From Pararhizobium qamdonense (GTDB taxonomy: Bacteria > Pseudomonadota > Alphaproteobacteria > Rhizobiales > Rhizobiaceae), in contig NZ_CP119567.1 of assembly GCF_029277445.1 (NCBI RefSeq), forward strand, positions 124,001 to 188,000: a stretch of 64,000 nucleotides of DNA, given 5' to 3'. Below the pieces are notes generated by a model that had not been told where the DNA came from, did no database searches, and saw only the letters and a program-made list of their open reading frames with translations. The position numbers and the translations under genes are program-made. Below, piece by piece: positions 4,834-25,378 of the stretch (the stretch's first letter is position 1; the number at the start of each line of letters is the position of its first letter).

Positions 4834-6270
4834 ATGCGCATCGCCGTTGGTGGGATTCATACCGAATGCAGCACCTATTCGCCGGTCCTGATGACGGTCG
4901 AGGATTTTCGCGTGCTGCGCGGTACCGGCCTGCTGAACGCCGAATATTTCAATTTCCTCGATGCTGACGGGATCGCGCATGTGCCGTTGCTGCACGCCCG
5001 CGCCGTGCCGGGCGGACCGGTATCGCGCTTTGCCTATGAGGCGTTCAAGGCAGAATTTCTCGAAAAACTGCAGGCGGCGCTGCCGATTGACGGGCTTTAT
5101 CTCGCCATGCATGGCGCCATCAATGTCGAGGGCATGGACGATGCGGAGGGTGACTGGATTTCGGCTGCCCGCGCAGCCGTTGGGCCGGATTGCCCGATCG
5201 CGGCAAGCTATGATCTCCATGGCAATGTCAGCCAGCAGATCATCGATCAGCTCGATATTTTCGCAGCCTACCGCACCGCGCCGCATATCGATGTGCGGGA
5301 AACCATGGTGCGCGCCTGGTCGATGCTGGTCGAGACGCTGAAGACAGGCAGCCGACCGGGCATCGCTTTTGCCAAGGTGCCGCTGCTGCTTCCGGGCGAA
5401 TGCACCTCCACGGAACATGAGCCGGCCAGGTCGATCTATCTGCGCCTTCCGGCATTCGATGCGAAGCCGGGCATTCTCGATGCCAATCTGATGATCGGTT
5501 ATGTCTGGGCCGATGAACCACGGGCAACGGCCTGTGCCGTCGTGACCGGAACCGACAGGCAGGCCGCATTGCAAGCCGCCGAAGCGATTGCACAGCAGTA
5601 TTGGAACGCCCGTGACAATTTTAAATTCGGCCCCGTCACGGGACCGCTGGACGAGATGCTCGATCGTGCCGCAGCTGCCGGAACATCCCCGGTCATCCTT
5701 GCCGATTCCGCCGATAATCCGACCGGTGGCGGGGTTGGCGACCGCGCCGATGTGCTGCGTGCGCTGATTGCCCGCAATTGGCGGGGCGCGCTTGTCGCCG
5801 GTATTACCGATCGCCCGGCTGTCGAGGCCTGTTTTGTAGCGGGGGAGGGCGCCACGATTGCGCTTCGGATCGGCGGCAGTCTCGATCCGTCAAGCCGTCC
5901 GGCGCAGGTGACGGCGGTGGTGCTGCGGCTTGACGGCGGCGATGCGGCAGCGGATCGGCAGGCCGTTATTGGCATCGACGGCATCGAGGTCGTGATTTCT
6001 GCGCGCCGGCGTCCCTACCACAATCTTGAGGACTTCCGGCGGCTGGGGCTCGATCCCAAGACCGTCCGGCTGCTGGTGGTTAAGTCCGGCTATCTCTCTC
6101 CCGAACTGGCCCCGATCGCCAATCCCAACCTGATGGCGTTGACCGATGGTGTCGTCAATCAGGATATCGCCAATCTCACAAGCCATCGCAGGACGTGGCC
6201 GGTCTTTCCCTTCGACCGCGATTTCGCCTTTGCGCCTGAAGCGGCACTCTCCGCGCGCTGGCGGGAGTGA
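4834..6270 (+). CDS. M81-family metallopeptidase (MlrC-like)
   Basis: A 478-residue protein of the microcystinase-C type metallopeptidase family, with a DUF1485 N-terminal domain and an MlrC C-terminal domain. Conserved features are GGIHTECSTYSP at the start, AMHGA near 95, a putative metal-binding Asp127-x-His129 pair (YDLHGN) and His151 (APHID), plus a glycine-rich DNPTGGG stretch mid-protein. The ATG at 4834 is favoured because GGGGAAA precedes it and the family starts with MRI; ATG 4822 adds four residues. The natural substrates of most family members are unknown; microcystin cleavage describes the founding enzyme only. A second M81 gene begins at the left edge, so this cluster carries two. 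Confidence 0.9.
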   Translation: MRIAVGGIHTECSTYSPVLMTVEDFRVLRGTGLLNAEYFNFLDADGIAHVPLLHARAVPGGPVSRFAYEAFKAEFLEKLQAALPIDGLYLAMHGAINVEGMDDAEGDWISAARAAVGPDCPIAASYDLHGNVSQQIIDQLDIFAAYRTAPHIDVRETMVRAWSMLVETLKTGSRPGIAFAKVPLLLPGECTSTEHEPARSIYLRLPAFDAKPGILDANLMIGYVWADEPRATACAVVTGTDRQAALQAAEAIAQQYWNARDNFKFGPVTGPLDEMLDRAAAAGTSPVILADSADNPTGGGVGDRADVLRALIARNWRGALVAGITDRPAVEACFVAGEGATIALRIGGSLDPSSRPAQVTAVVLRLDGGDAAADRQAVIGIDGIEVVISARRRPYHNLEDFRRLGLDPKTVRLLVVKSGYLSPELAPIANPNLMALTDGVVNQDIANLTSHRRTWPVFPFDRDFAFAPEAALSARWRE

Positions 6271-6309
6271 CGCTGGTCTAGCCAATCCGGTGCCCGTATT
6301 CCCGTCCGG

Positions 6310-7563
6310 ATGTCAGGGTCGCCTTTCCTCTCTTTTCCGGTGCTCGCAATGACATCCACGCTGTTGATCGCCTTGCGCCACCCAGTGGTCCGGCTCAGCA
6401 TGATCACGATCTTCCTGTTCGGGTTTACCGGGGCTGCGACGGCGCCCTATCAGTCGGTGATCGGCATCACCGAACTCGGCTTGAGCAATGGTTTCTATTC
6501 CATCCTGATTTTTGCCGCCGCCGCCGTCAACGTCATCGTCAGCCTCTGGGTCGGCGTTCTCGCCGATCGAATCGGCAATTACCGCATCCTGCTGATGACG
6601 GTCATGTTGTTCGGTATTCTCGGTTACGGCCTTGTCTATGCGGTCCCGGTTCCCGCCAGCTTTGTCTTCTGCACGCTGGTCATGCTGCCGGTCTATAACG
6701 CGATGACCTCGCTGCTCTTTGCCAATGTCCGCGCCATTGCCAATTTGGAAGGTGGCCGCGACGCGGCGGCGATCAATTCCGGTGTGCGCGCCGCAATCTC
6801 GGTCGCCTGGGTACTGGTACCGGGGCTCGTCGCCCTGGTTCTGGCCGGACGGGGCAGCATGCTGCCGGCCTATCTGCTTGCCTGTCTCGGCTGTATCGCC
6901 AATCTGGCTCTGGTCTTCTTCAAGTTGCCTGCAACGGATGGCCCGCCACCGGCAAAAAACCACCGCCATTCCTTCGTTGCATCCTTTGGCGAAGTACTCG
7001 CGCCAAACGTCTTTGCCCGGCTGACGGCTGTCTCGCTGATCACCTCGACGCTGCATGTCAACGCGGCGGTCCAGCCGCTGATCATTACCGGGGCTGCCGG
7101 CGGCACGGTGACGGATATCGGCGTGATCGTCGGGATCGTCGCATTTCTTGAGGTCGTGTTCATCTTTGTCTGGGCCCGCCTCCAGGTTCACCTGCGCGCG
7201 GTGACGGCGCTCGCTATCAGCGCCGGGCTCTATGCTGTCTATCTCACTCTGCTGGGTCTCGCTTCGGCTCCCTGGCATGTCTATGCCCTGACGCTGCTCA
7301 GCGCATTCGCCGCTGCCGCCCTGATCAGCATTCCCATCACCTATATCCAGGACCTCATTTCCGACCGTCCGGGCCTTGGCAGTTCGCTGATTTCGGTGAA
7401 CCTGTTCTTAAGCGGCGGGATAAGCGCCATACTGTTTGCGATCGGCACCCGCTTTTCTGATTATTCCGGCACGTCCATGCTTGGAGCGCTCGCCGGCGTG
7501 ACCGGCCTTGGCCTGATGCTCTTTCTCGACGGCCGCGGCGGAGGTGCGCATCAACATCGATGA
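6310..7563 (+). CDS. MFS transporter
   Basis: A 417-residue hydrophobic protein with about 12 predicted membrane helices in two halves separated by a polar loop (about 210-232, KLPATDGPPPAKNHRHS). The first cytoplasmic loop has GVLADRIGNYR, the hallmark MFS loop 2-3 signature. The general layout recalls the sugar-efflux (SET-like) branch, but that placement is tentative. Residues before about 20 look poorly conserved, and ATG 6349 (MTSTLLIALRHP) is a plausible alternative start because neither codon has a good ribosome site. It is 39 bp after the M81 gene and probably in the same operon, so it may move the substrate or product of that peptidase/glycosidase pathway. It ends convergently with the XRE regulator. 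Confidence 0.85.
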   Translation: MSGSPFLSFPVLAMTSTLLIALRHPVVRLSMITIFLFGFTGAATAPYQSVIGITELGLSNGFYSILIFAAAAVNVIVSLWVGVLADRIGNYRILLMTVMLFGILGYGLVYAVPVPASFVFCTLVMLPVYNAMTSLLFANVRAIANLEGGRDAAAINSGVRAAISVAWVLVPGLVALVLAGRGSMLPAYLLACLGCIANLALVFFKLPATDGPPPAKNHRHSFVASFGEVLAPNVFARLTAVSLITSTLHVNAAVQPLIITGAAGGTVTDIGVIVGIVAFLEVVFIFVWARLQVHLRAVTALAISAGLYAVYLTLLGLASAPWHVYALTLLSAFAAAALISIPITYIQDLISDRPGLGSSLISVNLFLSGGISAILFAIGTRFSDYSGTSMLGALAGVTGLGLMLFLDGRGGGAHQHR

Positions 7564-18438: not shown

Positions 18439-19059
18439 ATGATGCCTACCCTGATCTTGCCCGGATTGAACGGCTCCGATGACGGACATTGGCAGCGATA
18501 TTGGCTGAAGGACGATGCGCAAAGCCGTTTGGTCGAGCAGGACGATTGGAAAGCCCCAAGGGTTGAAGCCTGGACGCAGCGCCTAGAAGAGGTGCTTGTT
18601 CAGGAAGGGCCGGCCTATATCGTTGCCCATAGCCTTGGCTGTCTGCTGGCCGCCAAATGCGCCGACCGGCCGGCGGCAAAGCTGATCAAGGGCGCCTTGC
18701 TGGTTGCACCCTGCGATCTCTCCACCACTGAAAATCTCCATCCCGGCGCCATCCACTTCGGCCGGATGCCGACCCGCGTTCTACCCTTTCCAACAATTAC
18801 GGTCGGAAGCCTGAACGATATCTACATGCCGCTCGAAAGCCTGTCGCTTTACGGCCGTCTGTGGAAGACGCAGGTCAGAAACCTTGGCCCAGCCGGACAT
18901 ATCAACATCGAAAGCGGGTTTGGCCGGTGGACCGGAGGCTATGAATTGCTTTCGCTGTTGAAAATGAAAACCAAGGCACGCAGACAGTATGATGTCCCAC
19001 AGTCGCAAGGCGGCGAGGCGCTTGCGGTCGAGGCGATCAAATCCGGCATGACGCACTGA
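18439..19059 (+). CDS. RBBP9/YdeN-family alpha/beta hydrolase
   Basis: A 206-residue serine hydrolase-like protein. The N-terminal LILPGLNGSDDGHWQRYW is the hallmark of the RBBP9/YdeN family, the nucleophile elbow AHSLGC places Ser65, and GSLNDIYMPLE and AGHIN supply the likely Asp and His. It should be cytoplasmic; family substrates are mostly unknown. ATG 18439 (or 18442) follows GTGAGGAGC; the GTG at 18424 overlaps that ribosome site and is unlikely. Confidence 0.9.
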   Translation: MMPTLILPGLNGSDDGHWQRYWLKDDAQSRLVEQDDWKAPRVEAWTQRLEEVLVQEGPAYIVAHSLGCLLAAKCADRPAAKLIKGALLVAPCDLSTTENLHPGAIHFGRMPTRVLPFPTITVGSLNDIYMPLESLSLYGRLWKTQVRNLGPAGHINIESGFGRWTGGYELLSLLKMKTKARRQYDVPQSQGGEALAVEAIKSGMTH

Positions 19060-19118
19060 GGCATGTTGTTATATCTCCAGCCACGCTTGGTGCTGCAATC
19101 TTCCATCTTAGTTTCGAC

Positions 19119-19346
19119 TCAACGCTCGCAATTTACCCGGCCCTGGCAGATCTTTGGACGGTAGAGCCGTTTGTAGTTCCCCTCCTCAAACCGGATTTTT
19201 TGCTTGCGTTGATGTTCGAGCAGTTGGGCGGATGGTGCATGGGACTTTCCGGACACGGCCGGCTTGTCTGTCGAGCAACCCGTGGCGACAAATCCCATCG
19301 CGGCAATGATCGCAAAGGCCCGGCAGATCATCATCGTTTTTTGCAT
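19119..19346 (-). CDS. Small lipoprotein, unknown function
   Basis: A 75-residue precursor with a hydrophobic signal (ICRAFAIIAAMGFVATGC), lipobox Cys24, and a short polar mature part rich in Lys/Arg (EHQRKQKIRFEEGNYKRLYRP) holding two further cysteines. GGGAGGATAAGC is a strong ribosome site. It is convergent with the hydrolase gene. The mature peptide is only about 50 residues and has no recognised domain. Confidence 0.7.
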   Translation of the reverse strand: MQKTMMICRAFAIIAAMGFVATGCSTDKPAVSGKSHAPSAQLLEHQRKQKIRFEEGNYKRLYRPKICQGRVNCER

Positions 19347-19611
19347 GCTTATCCTCCCGCATTCCTCATGGTTGTGAAAAAGTGACGCCGCGTTTCATGA
19401 GCGCGATTTGAAGAAAATGCGTGCCATAGTTTTGCCTTCGAACGGCACGCTTTCGGTCGTGTTTGCTTAAAAGTTTATTAATCAGGCCTTCTTAGACATA
19501 GACCTTTGCTAAATGACTTCTAGATGAACGCAGTGCTCATCAAAGGTTCAGATCAGCACCCCTATTTCTAGGCGAAGCAGTCGCTTCGTTTTTCAACACC
19601 GAGGAAATCAC

Positions 19612-20202
19612 ATGAAGGCTATCGGTATCTTATTCGCATCCCTGTTCGTTGCCTCCACGGCTTATGCAGACGACATCTCCCTTGGCGTTCCAGGCTATGG
19701 CGGTAGCGGCTGCCCCTCAGACAGCGTGTCGGCGACAATCAGCCCGGATGGAAAAGCGCTCAGCCTGCTGTTTGACAACTATGTCGTTGAAGCCGGTGGC
19801 GAGACAGGCAAATCGTTCGATCGCAAGACCTGCAATGTCGCTATTCCCGTGCATGTTCCGCAAGGCCGCAGCGTCTCGGTCCTGGCGATCGACTATCGCG
19901 GATTCAACCAGTTGCCGCGCGGCGCCCGCTCGCAGTTCAACGTCGAATATTTCTTTGCCGGCACCCGTGGCCCGTCCTTTGCCCAGACATTCACAGGCCC
20001 GAAGGAAAAGGATTACCTGATCTCCAACAAGCTAGTGGCCGATTCCCTGATCTGGTCGGCTTGCGGCGAGGACGTGAACCTCCGGACGAATTCCAGCATT
20101 CGCGTCAACACCTCGAAAAACCAGGAGGCCATGGCAACGGTCGATACGCAGGACGTGAAAGCTGCCATCGTCTATCAGCTGCAGTGGCGCACCTGCCGCT
20201 AA
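19612..20202 (+). CDS. Secreted DUF4360 protein
   Basis: A 196-residue exported protein. A cleavable signal ends in STAYA (about 20), and the mature domain shows the DUF4360 pattern: CPSDSVSATISPDGKALSLLFDNY, then CNVAIPVHVPQG, IDYRGF and AEYFF-like NVEYFFAG. Four cysteines (CP, CN, ACGE, TCR) could form two disulfides. DUF4360 proteins are secreted beta-rich proteins of unknown function found in fungi and some bacteria. The next gene shares the same motifs in its N-terminus, so the two form a pair. A strong terminator lies between them, implying that this gene is expressed more highly. An adhesion or surface-defence role is only a guess. Confidence 0.88.
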   Translation: MKAIGILFASLFVASTAYADDISLGVPGYGGSGCPSDSVSATISPDGKALSLLFDNYVVEAGGETGKSFDRKTCNVAIPVHVPQGRSVSVLAIDYRGFNQLPRGARSQFNVEYFFAGTRGPSFAQTFTGPKEKDYLISNKLVADSLIWSACGEDVNLRTNSSIRVNTSKNQEAMATVDTQDVKAAIVYQLQWRTCR

Positions 20203-20215
20203 TACGAGGCGGATC

Positions 20216-20248
20216 GGGGCAGCAGCTTGATGCTGCCCCCCTGTTTTT
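20216..20248 (+). terminator. Rho-independent terminator/attenuator between the DUF4360 genes
   Basis: GGGGCAGCA (20216-20224) pairs perfectly with TGCTGCCCC (20231-20239) around a 6-nt loop, followed by a T run at 20244-20248. It ends only 16 bp before the ATG of the next gene, so it should reduce transcription of the beta-barrel gene relative to the secreted DUF4360 gene. Confidence 0.85.
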
Positions 20249-20264
20249 ATGAGGGTTAATTGTC

Positions 20265-21668
20265 ATGCGTCCCCCCGTTTATCTGACTGTAAACTTGTTT
20301 GCCCTTGCACTTTTGAACGCTGCTGGCAGTCAGGCGCATGCGGCGAATGGCTGCGCTGATGGCACGTTTTCGAGTGTGACGTCGCCGGATGGCAATGCGA
20401 CCAGTTTCCTGTTTGATGATTTCTCCGCAACAGCGGGCGGCTCGTCGGGAACAACGCGTGTAACGAGCACCTGCAATCTGAGCGTTCCCGTCACCAAACC
20501 TGGCGGCTATTCCGTCTATCAGGTCGATTATCGCGGCTTCGTCACCACGCAGGATGGGCAGACAGCCACCATCGTCGCGCAACAGGATGGCAAGACGGTC
20601 CTGAACCATCAGATCACCGGTCCGCTGGAGGATGACGTTTCCGTGGGCAATCGCGTCGGCGTGTCGGGCTCGGATACGCTTGAATTATCGGTTGTTGTCG
20701 GTGCGACCGGACCGCTGAATGCGGCAGATCTTGAGGCCGGTCTCTTTCTCGATACGATCGATTTCGCCCGGCTCGGTTTCACCACCGCGCAGTCGGTGAC
20801 AAATTCGGTCGATCAGCTGGCGCGCCAGAGGCAGTCGATCATGCTGGATCTGATGGACACTGCGCAAAACCTGCTCGGCCAGTCGCAGCGGTTTGACAGC
20901 GACAGCTACCTTAGCGCCTTTGGCAGCTCGGATGCAGCGGCCGGCTTCAACGGACGCTGGAACGCCGGAAATGGCGTAAGCCTTCTCGGTGGCGCCGCGA
21001 TCGTGAACCCGAACAGGACAGATGTTTCCATCGATACGCTCGCCCTTCTGGCTGGCGCGGCACGTTATACCACCCCGGAAGCACAATGGCGCGCATTTGG
21101 CGAGGTCGGCGCCTGGGGCTCGCCAAAAGTCTCGGCCAACCTGTCGCGCAGTTACCTCAACAACGATGACATGGTGTTTGCCGGAAGTGCGGTGTCCGGA
21201 TCGCTGTTCAACGCCTACGGGCGTGTCGGCGCGATCTATGCGCCCGACGATGCCAACGAAATCGCCTTTTCTGCCCGGGTGACCCGGTCCTGGCTTGATC
21301 TCGACGGCTACCGCGAAACGGCGACTGGCGATAATCTGTTTGCAGCCACGGTGAAGGGCGGCCGTTCCAAGGCCGACACCGTCAGCGCCGAAATTGCCTG
21401 GAGCCACGATACCGGAGGGCAACTGGACTATACAGTCTCAGGCGCGATCGGCAGGACGTTTGCAAGTAAGAACGGAGCCAAGGCCTCGGTCGATTGGGTC
21501 GGCGATGTCTCGGGCAGCGCTGACGATCAGAACTTCGCAACGATCGGCGGCCGTGTCGGCTGGAAGCTCGACGGTGTCTGGAAGGTCGAAACGTCGCTGT
21601 CGGCAACATTTCGCGAGCAGGACAAGCCCGATTGGAATGTCGGCGGCCAGTTGAAGGCGTCGTTCTGA
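20265..21668 (+). CDS. DUF4360-like domain fused to an outer-membrane beta-barrel
   Basis: A 467-residue precursor. The signal peptide ends near AHA (26). Residues 28-150 repeat the DUF4360 signature of the upstream gene (SPDGNATSFLFDDF, CNLSVPVTKPGGYSVYQVDYRGF). A helical linker (about 165-205, DQLARQRQSIMLDLMDTAQNLLG) leads into alternating amphipathic strands to the end (NGRWNAGNG, RAFGEVGAWG, WKVETSLSATFRE) finishing in KASF; the terminal Phe is typical of BAM-inserted barrels. The layout of passenger, helix and barrel resembles a small autotransporter. It probably displays the DUF4360 domain on the cell surface. The barrel family and strand count cannot be fixed by eye. Confidence 0.78.
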   Translation: MRPPVYLTVNLFALALLNAAGSQAHAANGCADGTFSSVTSPDGNATSFLFDDFSATAGGSSGTTRVTSTCNLSVPVTKPGGYSVYQVDYRGFVTTQDGQTATIVAQQDGKTVLNHQITGPLEDDVSVGNRVGVSGSDTLELSVVVGATGPLNAADLEAGLFLDTIDFARLGFTTAQSVTNSVDQLARQRQSIMLDLMDTAQNLLGQSQRFDSDSYLSAFGSSDAAAGFNGRWNAGNGVSLLGGAAIVNPNRTDVSIDTLALLAGAARYTTPEAQWRAFGEVGAWGSPKVSANLSRSYLNNDDMVFAGSAVSGSLFNAYGRVGAIYAPDDANEIAFSARVTRSWLDLDGYRETATGDNLFAATVKGGRSKADTVSAEIAWSHDTGGQLDYTVSGAIGRTFASKNGAKASVDWVGDVSGSADDQNFATIGGRVGWKLDGVWKVETSLSATFREQDKPDWNVGGQLKASF

Positions 21669-21737
21669 CGATCAACGGAATACCGGCGTCCGCACGCGGC
21701 GGTATGACCTGCCGCGTACGTTGCCAGCGATCGTGGA

Positions 21738-22022
21738 TTATTTGACGTCCGTGACCGTGAGTTTGCCGTCGATCCGCTCGGCGACAAATTCCACGTTTGT
21801 GCCTTCCTTGAGCTTGCCGAAAAGCGCGACGTCCTTGACGCGGAACACCATGGTCATCGCCGGCATGGCGAGCACCTTCAGCTCCTCATGAATAAGCGTC
21901 ACCTTCTTTGCCGTGACGTCAAGTTTCTTGACCGTGCCCCTGGTGAATTCCGCAGCGAATGCGCCGGATGTCATGGTTGCGGCGAGCATGGCGGCTGCCG
22001 TGATTTTGAGAATGGTTTTCAT
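21738..22022 (-). CDS. CusF-like periplasmic copper-binding protein
   Basis: A 94-residue precursor with a signal peptide ending in GAFA and a small OB-like barrel. The metal segment H-x-E...MPAMTMVFRV matches the CusF/CopK-style CusF-Ec domain, with His and three Met as soft copper ligands. ATG 22022 is chosen because GGAGG lies 7 bases upstream; ATG 22028 and the 22049 start are too close to or upstream of it. It is the last gene of the copper operon and may ferry Cu(I) to a periplasmic or efflux partner. No RND pump (CusA/B) is present in this window. Confidence 0.9.
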   Translation of the reverse strand: MKTILKITAAAMLAATMTSGAFAAEFTRGTVKKLDVTAKKVTLIHEELKVLAMPAMTMVFRVKDVALFGKLKEGTNVEFVAERIDGKLTVTDVK

Positions 22023-22045
22023 CGTCATTCCTCCTTGAACGCAGG

Positions 22046-22525
22046 TCATTTCCTGGAAACGGTGACATCGCCATGCATGCCGGCATCGTAATGACCCGGA
22101 ACGAGGCAGGCGATCTTGAACGTGCCGTCATTGGTGAACTTCCAGATGATCTCGCCGGATGTTCCGGCGGAAAGCCGGATTGCGTTGGGGTCGTCATGTT
22201 CCATGTCCGGGAATTTTTCCATCACGGCCTTGTGCTCCATGACCTTGTCTTCCTGATCGAGCACGAATTCGTGGTCGAGTTTACCGGCGTTTCTGATGGA
22301 AAAGACGATGGTCTGACCTTGCCGGACATTAAAATGGTCCGGCGTGAAGATCATTCGGCCGTCGTCCGTCTCCTTCATGGCGACACGGATCGTCTGGGTG
22401 GCCTGTGCTTTCGCACCGGGCTCGCCAACAGCCATGGTGTCGCTGTGTCCACCGGTATGGGAACCGGAGCCGAGGGCCGGAGAAGCAAGCGCTGCGAGAA
22501 ACAGCGCGATGATTGCGGTTTTCAT
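22046..22525 (-). CDS. Cupredoxin-like copper protein
   Basis: A 159-residue exported protein with a signal to about 18 (ALASPALG), a His-rich start (GSHTGGHSD) and a single cupredoxin fold. A complete type-1 site is visible: His85 (LDHEF), Cys140, His145 and Met150 (ACLVPGHYDAGM), so it should be a blue copper electron carrier or copper-binding protein. AAAGGACG precedes ATG 22525. It lies 34 bp after the multicopper oxidase gene, and may accept electrons from it or store copper. Confidence 0.92.
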   Translation of the reverse strand: MKTAIIALFLAALASPALGSGSHTGGHSDTMAVGEPGAKAQATQTIRVAMKETDDGRMIFTPDHFNVRQGQTIVFSIRNAGKLDHEFVLDQEDKVMEHKAVMEKFPDMEHDDPNAIRLSAGTSGEIIWKFTNDGTFKIACLVPGHYDAGMHGDVTVSRK

Positions 22526-22559
22526 GATGTCGTCCTTTGATCGGTTGCAGACATGCGTT

Positions 22560-23909
22560 TCAGCCATGCTTCATGGGTTTAGGGGTGACCTTTGTTTTGG
22601 CATCCCTCGCTTTGGGCGCGCCGGGAAGTTCGCCGGTCCACTCGAAGGCCTGCGTCCCCGGCGGATTTTCGTACCAGCCGGGATCGCTGTAATCATCGGC
22701 AGCAACGCCCTCGCGGACCTTGACGACGGAGAACATGCCGCCCATCTCGATCGGGCCATGCGGACCCCATCCGGTCATCATCGCAATGGTGTTTTCCGGG
22801 ATTTCCATGTCCATCTGCCCCATATCGGCCATGCCTGCGGTTCCCATCGGCATGTATTCCGGGCGGATTTTCCTGATCTTTTCCGCCACCTGTTTCTTAT
22901 CGACGCCGATGAAGGTCGGAATATCGTGGCCCATCGCATTCATCGTGTGATGCGATTTGTGGCAATGGATCGCCCAGTCACCCGGATATTTGGCGTCGAA
23001 CTCGAAGGCACGCATCGCACCCACGGGGATGTCGATGCTGACCTCGGGCCAGCGGGCCTCGGGCCGGACCCAGCCACCGTCCGTTCCGGTCACCTCGACG
23101 TCATATCCGTGCATATGGATGGGATGGTTCGTCATGGTGAGGTTACCGGCACGCACGCGAACCCGGTCGTCCTTGGTAACCACGAGCGGATCGATCCCCG
23201 GGAAGATGCGGCTGTTCCAGGCCCACAGGTTAAAGTCGGTCATTTCCATGACGCGCGGAACGTAGCTGCCGGGATCGATGTCGTAGGCGCTGAGCAGGAA
23301 CACGAAATCCCGATCGACGCGCATGAATGTTTCGTCCCTGGGATGGATGACGAACATCCCCATCATGCCCATCGCCAGCTGGACCATTTCATCCGAATGC
23401 GGGTGGTACATGAAGGTGCCGGATTTGACGAGGTCGAACTCGTAGACATAGGTCTTGCCGGATGGAATATGCGGTTGCGACAAACCACCGACCCCGTCCA
23501 TGCCGGATGGCAGGATCATGCCATGCCAGTGCACTGTCGTGTGTTCGGGCAGCTTGTTTGTCACGAAGATGCGGACGCGGTCTCCCTCGACCGCTTCGAT
23601 CGTCGGGCCGGGGGACTGGCCGTTATAGCCCCAGAGGCGCGCCGTCATGCCCTCAGCCATTTCACGCTCGACGGGTTCGGCAACCAGGTGGAATTCCTTG
23701 ACACCGTTATTCATCCGATGGGGAAGCGTCCAGCCATTCAGCGTCACGACCGGGGTGTAATCCGGTCCTGAGGCGGGACGCACCGGTGTCTGTGTTTGCG
23801 CGGTTTCCATCATGGCAGCGTCCGGCAGCCCAATGTTGGCGGTTTTCGCCCATGCGGCACTCGATATCAGGGCAGCCCCGGCGCCCAGCATTTGTCGTCT
23901 GTTGAACAT
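22560..23909 (-). CDS. Multicopper oxidase, CopA/CueO-like
   Basis: A 449-residue oxidase exported by a twin-arginine signal (NRRQMLGAG). All four copper-ligand segments are intact: HWHG (127-130), HPH (169-171), HPIHMH (262-267) and HCHKSHH (315-321). It probably oxidises Cu(I) to the less toxic Cu(II) in the periplasm. A Met-rich segment (MPMGTAGMADMGQMDMEIPE, about 347-366) comes after the last copper ligands, in the manner of Met-rich regions of copper-tolerance oxidases. AAAGGACGAC precedes the ATG, 14 bp after the TolC-family gene. The copper operon context supports this substrate, though laccase-like activity on phenols is possible. Confidence 0.95.
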   Translation of the reverse strand: MFNRRQMLGAGAALISSAAWAKTANIGLPDAAMMETAQTQTPVRPASGPDYTPVVTLNGWTLPHRMNNGVKEFHLVAEPVEREMAEGMTARLWGYNGQSPGPTIEAVEGDRVRIFVTNKLPEHTTVHWHGMILPSGMDGVGGLSQPHIPSGKTYVYEFDLVKSGTFMYHPHSDEMVQLAMGMMGMFVIHPRDETFMRVDRDFVFLLSAYDIDPGSYVPRVMEMTDFNLWAWNSRIFPGIDPLVVTKDDRVRVRAGNLTMTNHPIHMHGYDVEVTGTDGGWVRPEARWPEVSIDIPVGAMRAFEFDAKYPGDWAIHCHKSHHTMNAMGHDIPTFIGVDKKQVAEKIRKIRPEYMPMGTAGMADMGQMDMEIPENTIAMMTGWGPHGPIEMGGMFSVVKVREGVAADDYSDPGWYENPPGTQAFEWTGELPGAPKARDAKTKVTPKPMKHG

Positions 23910-23923
23910 ATCGTCGTCCTTTC

Positions 23924-25378
23924 TCAGTGACCGCCGCTGCCTTCAGCGGCAGCTGCCAAATCCGCTCCGCCGTCCGCTGCCCCCACACCGCCGCCATAAA
24001 TGGCAGGCGCGAGGTTGGCTTCGGCTAACCAGAAATCACGTTTCGCGTTGACAGCGAGCAGGGTCGAATTGATCGTCTCGCGGCTGTCGGTGAGCAGTTC
24101 GAATGTGTTGGTGATCATGCCGTTATAGGTCAGCAGAGATTCCTCCTCGATATCAGCGCGGAGCGGTAAGACGCTGTTGCGAAAGTGCCGGGCGATATCG
24201 TAGTTCGCGCGGTAAGCCTGGTAGGCGGACCTTGCTTCGGAGCGGACGTTCACGGCCTTTTCCGCAAGCAGATTGGCGGCGCGCATATAGGCCAGTTCCG
24301 CCTTGCGCATGCGCGCCTTGCCAGTGTCGAAGATCGGAATTGCGAATTCCAGCTCGATATTTCCCGTCGTATCGGCTTTCTTCACGCCGTCCTCCAGTTC
24401 GCGCTCTGTCTCGAAACCGGTTAAAATTTCCAGGTCTGTGACATACCGCGTTGCTCCGGTCAGCTTGTACGACTGCGCCGTGGCATCGAGATCGAGCCTG
24501 GCCATCTGCAGATCGACCCGGCTTTGTAAGGCTTCCGCCTCGATCTGATCCTGCGTCAGCAGCCCCTTGGGAAGCTGCGCAAGCCGGTTGGGAAGCTGGT
24601 AATCGATGTCCGGTCCCCAGAGCCCCATGAGCCGTGTCAGTTCCTCCTTGGCCAGGCGGGCGTCAAGGCGGGCTTTGGCGGTCTGTCCGGCCAGTTCGGC
24701 GTAGAAGACATGATGCCGCGCCTGAGCGCTCTTCGTCAGCGCACCCGTTTCGCCGAGCTTCTTGGCAAGTTCCGATGCAGCATCGGCTGTAGCCTGCGCC
24801 TTTGAAAGTTGGGCGGCCGTTTCGCGGGTCGCCACCGCCGTAATCCACGCCCGCCTCGTATCGGCTGCAAGCTGCAGCGTTTGCAGAGCCGCGCCAAGCT
24901 GAGCTCTCCTAAATCCGTTGCCGGCAATATCAATCGCTTTCTTCCGGGTTGCGAGCGCGACGATATTGGTGGCGAGCACGCCTTCCACGGACTTGAACAC
25001 CGCCAATCCCGGCGTGCCGATGCCGGTCAGTCCTACACCTACGGCCGGGTTGGCAAACATGGTCGATTGCCATGCATCTGCAGCCGCGTCGCCAAGACTG
25101 GCATAGGCAGCCTGAAGACCCTTGTTGTTGAGTAGAGCGATCTGCACAGCCGTCTCGGCGTCGATGCTTTTCTTGACCAGCAGCACCTTGACCAGTTTTG
25201 CGGCTGCCTGAGCGTCGTGCCGGTTCTGAATCCAGACGGTATGTTTGCCCGTCGCGTCAGCCGTTGTCGTGGACACCGACGAAAATCCGGCATCGCCGTG
25301 CGAATATTGTGCCGCCTGGACGCATCCACTCAGAATGAGCGGCAAGAGAAGAACTGCCGTTATTTTCTGCTTGGTCAT
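23924..25378 (-). CDS. TolC-family outer-membrane lipoprotein
   Basis: A 484-residue outer-membrane efflux protein with a lipoprotein signal (LILSGC, Cys19) and the repeated helical/strand halves of the TolC/CusC/OprM family (AALQTLQLAADTRRAWITA, AYQAYRANYDIARHF). CusC-type channels export Cu(I) with an RND pump. Here no CusA or CusB gene follows, so the inner-membrane pump must be elsewhere or the channel serves another purpose. The start overlaps the end of the upstream lipoprotein gene by 4 bp. TolC-like factors of this copper-operon type recur beside CopA-type oxidases in Proteobacteria; that is recalled family knowledge. Confidence 0.92.
   Translation of the reverse strand: MTKQKITAVLLLPLILSGCVQAAQYSHGDAGFSSVSTTTADATGKHTVWIQNRHDAQAAAKLVKVLLVKKSIDAETAVQIALLNNKGLQAAYASLGDAAADAWQSTMFANPAVGVGLTGIGTPGLAVFKSVEGVLATNIVALATRKKAIDIAGNGFRRAQLGAALQTLQLAADTRRAWITAVATRETAAQLSKAQATADAASELAKKLGETGALTKSAQARHHVFYAELAGQTAKARLDARLAKEELTRLMGLWGPDIDYQLPNRLAQLPKGLLTQDQIEAEALQSRVDLQMARLDLDATAQSYKLTGATRYVTDLEILTGFETERELEDGVKKADTTGNIELEFAIPIFDTGKARMRKAELAYMRAANLLAEKAVNVRSEARSAYQAYRANYDIARHFRNSVLPLRADIEEESLLTYNGMITNTFELLTDSRETINSTLLAVNAKRDFWLAEANLAPAIYGGGVGAADGGADLAAAAEGSGGH

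Follow-up and report, generated by a model that had tools for sequence, protein, structure and literature searches.

The P1-P2 gene pair and its shared domain

A stretch of 64,000 nucleotides from Pararhizobium qamdonense (contig NZ_CP119567.1, positions 124,001 to 188,000; hereafter, the window) was found to carry two adjacent genes whose products share the domain DUF4360. The first gene (19612..20202, + strand) encodes P1, a free secreted DUF4360 protein of 196 aa with four cysteines (C34, C74, C151 and C195). The second (20265..21668, + strand) encodes P2, an autotransporter-like protein of 467 aa with a DUF4360 passenger, as judged from a Pfam match, a predicted model and structural superposition. 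The genes are separated by 62 bp, and the coordinates of both open reading frames (ORFs) agree with those of an earlier note on this DNA (the original prediction). Judged by eye, both N-termini were signal-like, ending in AYA in P1 and in AHA before residue 27 in P2.

Both proteins were assigned to DUF4360 (PF14273) by sequence profile. With a curated cut-off of 27 bits, P1 scored 163 bits and residues 26-134 of P2 scored 61 bits; all 36 of the 36 aligned P2 relatives matched the domain individually, and no Pfam domain other than DUF4360 was found in P1 or P2. A direct BLASTP alignment of the two proteins covered 118 residues at 34% identity (E 4e-17, from this one comparison), and profile-profile comparison gave a probability of 99.2% over 104 columns. 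The original prediction had hinged on kinship between residues 28-150 of P2 and DUF4360, which the profile match bears out. The chain of motifs that it described was also present beyond chance, as SPDGKALSLLFD in P1 and SPDGNATSFLFD in P2, then CNVAIPV and CNLSVPV, respectively, and then DYRGF in both; the second motif, given there as a strict VPV, had to be relaxed to CN-x-x-[IV]-PV. The beta-sandwich fold of Bd1399 was recovered for DUF4360 (PF14273); the P2 passenger is assigned to the domain by sequence profile.

The P2 passenger (residues 28-173; 20346..20783, + strand) has nine predicted strands and a single cysteine pair, C30/C70. Four cysteines were present in 45 of 45 P1-type proteins and in 102 of 120 proteins of a second, B-type group, described below. 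The P2 passenger had exactly two, C30 and C70, in all 36 relatives, and the second pair of the P1-type proteins was absent.

Predicted barrel architecture of P2

The predicted model of P2 (mean predicted local distance difference test score, 89) is the basis for a C-terminal beta-barrel (residues 215-467; 20907..21665, + strand). Twelve long strands were counted on this model by the analyst, as is characteristic of type Va autotransporters, and the last residue was Phe in 36 of 36 P2 relatives. A helix running from passenger to barrel, another type Va feature, is predicted at residues 175-203 (20787..20873, + strand) and would thread the barrel. The barrel model superposed on the solved autotransporters EstA, NalP and EspP; 284 of the 294 residues at positions 174-467 could be aligned to EstA, and the linker helix superposed as well. 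Given the autotransporter-like barrel and the superposed linker helix, the DUF4360 domain is expected to end outside the cell, held by P2 at the cell surface, a topology that rests on prediction. The Pfam autotransporter beta-domain family (PF03797) was not among the 11 families matched by any of the 36 P2 members (E <= 0.1), and P2 was therefore classed by architecture and not as a member of that family. The DUF4360 matches, the barrel model and the superpositions together support the proposal that a single kind of domain occurs at the locus in two forms, one soluble and the other tethered to a barrel.

According to the accessible part of one report, only closely spaced cysteines are tolerated during transport through the barrel (PMC3546941). 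The absence of the second cysteine pair from P2 fits such a passage.

Conservation and distribution of the pair

When named genomes were scanned once with the P2 alignment, 25 loci were obtained, comprising 21 with full-length P2 (L027-L046 and L048), one with decayed P2 (L047) and three without the barrel (L049-L051). Each of the 21 full-length P2 genes was immediately preceded by a P1 gene in the same orientation, one P1 copy being frame-broken: in L041 (Rhizobium sp. 32-5/1), P1 is split across two ORFs at about 5929-6518, and P2 is intact. At L047, the decayed P2 extends across three frames (6001-6941), and no P1 was found within the 12.9 kb examined. The named record closest to the window was Rhizobium sp. 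Root483D2, with P2 at 99%.

The scanned loci and the whole-genome sets overlap in several strains, so that their counts are not additive. DUF4360 was carried by 6 of 61 genomes of relatives, with both genes in all six, and by 11 of 394 genomes of the family to which the window organism belongs, with both genes in all 11; two profiles served to recheck the ten family genomes other than that of the window. In the order, DUF4360 occurred in 3 of 397 genomes, namely the window's own and two from another family, each of the latter having two free genes and one fusion. The domain was rare and patchy more widely, turning up in 2 of the 398 genomes that sampled the phylum and in 4 of the 369 from one class. 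A Mesorhizobium plasmid also has a P1-P2 pair. In Bauldia-type genomes (L048, L074 and L079), the barrel fusion followed two free genes of P1 type, making a run of three DUF4360 genes.

The neighbourhoods of the pair varied, with copper genes in the window, an IS66 element in Mesorhizobium and, on a plasmid of Shinella, methionine salvage genes together with a cbb3 oxidase. Mean pairwise identity among 22 pairs was 86% for P1 (that of L041 being partial), 57% for the passenger and 57% for the barrel; at the sequence level, P1 is far more tightly conserved than P2. The survey for conserved adjacency that had been put forward as a check thus showed the pairing to be kept, both in the scanned loci and in the whole-genome sets. 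Of the roles suggested in the original prediction, ligand/receptor and adhesin are kept as candidates. An interbacterial toxin/immunity pair is disfavoured by the strong conservation of P1 and by the Pfam result.

Hairpin between P1 and P2

A G+C-rich hairpin (20216..20250, + strand; stem 20216-20239), followed by CCTGTTTTTA, lies 3' of the P1 stop codon. The 60 bases 3' of this stop codon gave a folding z of -3.15 relative to dinucleotide shuffles. Values of z < -2 were obtained for 17 of 23 P1-P2 spacers (those of the window, the 21 loci and L026) versus 6 of 34 controls, namely gaps between co-directional ORFs in these sequences (p about 3e-5, in tests that ignore kinship among related spacers, L027 being nearly identical to the window). 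The spacers that did not reach this threshold were those of L042 (z +0.4), L029, L030, L032, L048 and L026. The sequence of the hairpin differed among groups, and its position and strength were kept. RNA structures shape unequal stoichiometry within operons, according to the accessible part of one report (PMC5927463). The natural reading of the hairpin, which suggests that more P1 than P2 is made, is a partial terminator or decay barrier favouring P1.

Origin of the barrel fusion

A tree of 37 domains placed its nine P2 passengers with a free Thiobacillus protein (the second gene of L049) and with one protein from a Bauldia-type genome (L075). This group stood apart from the P1-type proteins with support of 100/98, with a warning from the program of long branches meeting. 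Profile scores agreed: with the Thiobacillus-type (B) and P1-type (A) profiles, respectively, P2 of the window scored 74.5 and 58.4 bits, P2 of Mesorhizobium 56.3 and 45.0, and Bauldia 32.0 and 19.6. The P2 passenger thus groups with a different DUF4360 subfamily and not with the neighbouring P1 proteins, and the original description of the domain as locally duplicated is not supported. In L049 (Thiobacillus), a B-type gene without a barrel lies right behind an A-type gene, with 108 bp to the first possible start. The simplest history suggested by these data would start from an older A+B pair, its B member acquiring an autotransporter barrel in Hyphomicrobiales; L049 is the single case seen of an A+B pair without a barrel. 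Separately, a DUF4360 match at G1492:C157:4821-5300 lies within an open frame of 482 residues and could be a further fusion.

Proposed function and alternative explanations

It is proposed, with about even confidence, that the two genes make up a surface module, in which a displayed sandwich (P2) and an excess of free protein (P1) work together. P2 would be a classical autotransporter, whose barrel inserts into the outer membrane and shows the DUF4360 beta-sandwich at the cell surface, probably uncleaved. P1 would be a free DUF4360 protein with two disulfides that crosses the inner membrane and presumably leaves the periplasm. It would be made in excess over P2 because part of the transcripts would end at, or be trimmed to, the hairpin. 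The two domains may bind each other, P2 retaining P1 at the surface, or both may bind one target outside the cell, for which a glycan or a wall polymer from another organism is a candidate. Joint action is most likely in view of the conserved pairing. The C30-C70 spacing of 40 residues is not very close for transport through a barrel, though, and a terminator scan of 19000-22100 found 2 sites, the hairpin included, versus 3.4 in shuffled sequences.

Alternatively, P2 could be anchored at the surface while P1, periplasmic or secreted, acts independently of it, their adjacency reflecting a tendency of DUF4360 genes to stand in tandem. Such arrays are common elsewhere: in the family of G1429, DUF4360 occurred in 36 of 63 genomes, with up to nine matches per genome and often in tandem arrays, and 21 of these 36 had at least two genes within 2 kb on one strand (counted by the analyst). 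The far stronger conservation of P1 also speaks for this reading. However, the pairing persists at every full-length P2 locus despite the varied neighbourhoods, and in other families too, and independence is considered rather unlikely. A periplasmic helper role for P1, as a soluble mimic of the passenger that would bind or shield it before folding, or protect barrel assembly, until P2 is inserted, would suit its position ahead of P2 in the operon and its probable excess. Nevertheless, 1377 relatives were found with P1 and 44 with P2 (numbers that do not refer to genomes), and some genomes in which the barrel fusion was not seen, such as G1429 and L049, carry P1-type genes. Therefore, this role cannot be general for P1-type genes, and it is thought improbable here.

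Two further readings would keep P1 and P2 together. P2 might be a surface nucleator and P1 the bulk subunit, with a small number of barrel-anchored DUF4360 domains seeding edge-to-edge sheets or fibres of the abundant free protein, a coat of folded sandwiches and not an amyloid, whose copy ratio would be set by the hairpin. By analogy, the assembly contact would be the continuous sheet across the crystal dimer of Bd1399 (PDB 8OKH), the physiological relevance of which was left open by its authors; we regard this as a fairly distant prospect. It is still less probable that P2 is a FapF-like secretion pore dedicated to P1, in which a periplasmic DUF4360 domain would dock P1 and P1 would exit via the barrel.

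Comparison with known systems

Among the closest known systems are type Va (classical) autotransporters, and EstA of Pseudomonas aeruginosa (PDB 3KVN) in particular. The identity between P2 and EstA in the superposition was 13%, the P2 passenger is a DUF4360 beta-sandwich and not a GDSL hydrolase or beta-helix, and every full-length P2 in the scan stands behind a soluble relative of its own passenger. A literature search combining 'autotransporter' and 'DUF4360' gave no match, most subscription journals being outside the search; the domain itself (DUF4360, PF14273 or IPR025649) was named in seven papers.

Curli CsgA/CsgB and similar pairs follow the same principle as P1 and P2, an abundant soluble subunit with a surface-bound homologue, but CsgB is not part of a barrel protein. 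DUF4360 is a folded domain with disulfide bonds, and no sequence relation to CsgA/CsgB is claimed. For Bd1399 of Bdellovibrio bacteriovorus and the adjacent-numbered Bd2850/Bd2851, a barrel-anchored form has not been described. According to the accessible parts of the reports on them, the fungal proteins VdSCP27 and OmSSP2 resemble P1 in having a secreted DUF4360 domain with four cysteines and act at plant contact; they differ from P1 and P2 in being eukaryotic and free only, with no anchored partner mentioned in those parts.

To our knowledge, DUF4360 proteins have no known biochemical function. They recur at contacts between organisms, in Bdellovibrio predation and in plant-infecting and mycorrhizal fungi. 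A soil or plant-associated bacterium that naturally displays one form next to a free one would offer a direct handle on the binding target and on whether the two forms need each other. P2 would also widen the range of passenger folds among autotransporters; if the reading of the hairpin is true, the pair would be an anchor-plus-free layout with built-in stoichiometry.

Neighbouring genes

Convergent with P2, a copper cluster occupies 21738-25378 on the - strand. According to Pfam, it encodes a CusF-like protein, a cupredoxin, a multicopper oxidase and an outer-membrane efflux protein.
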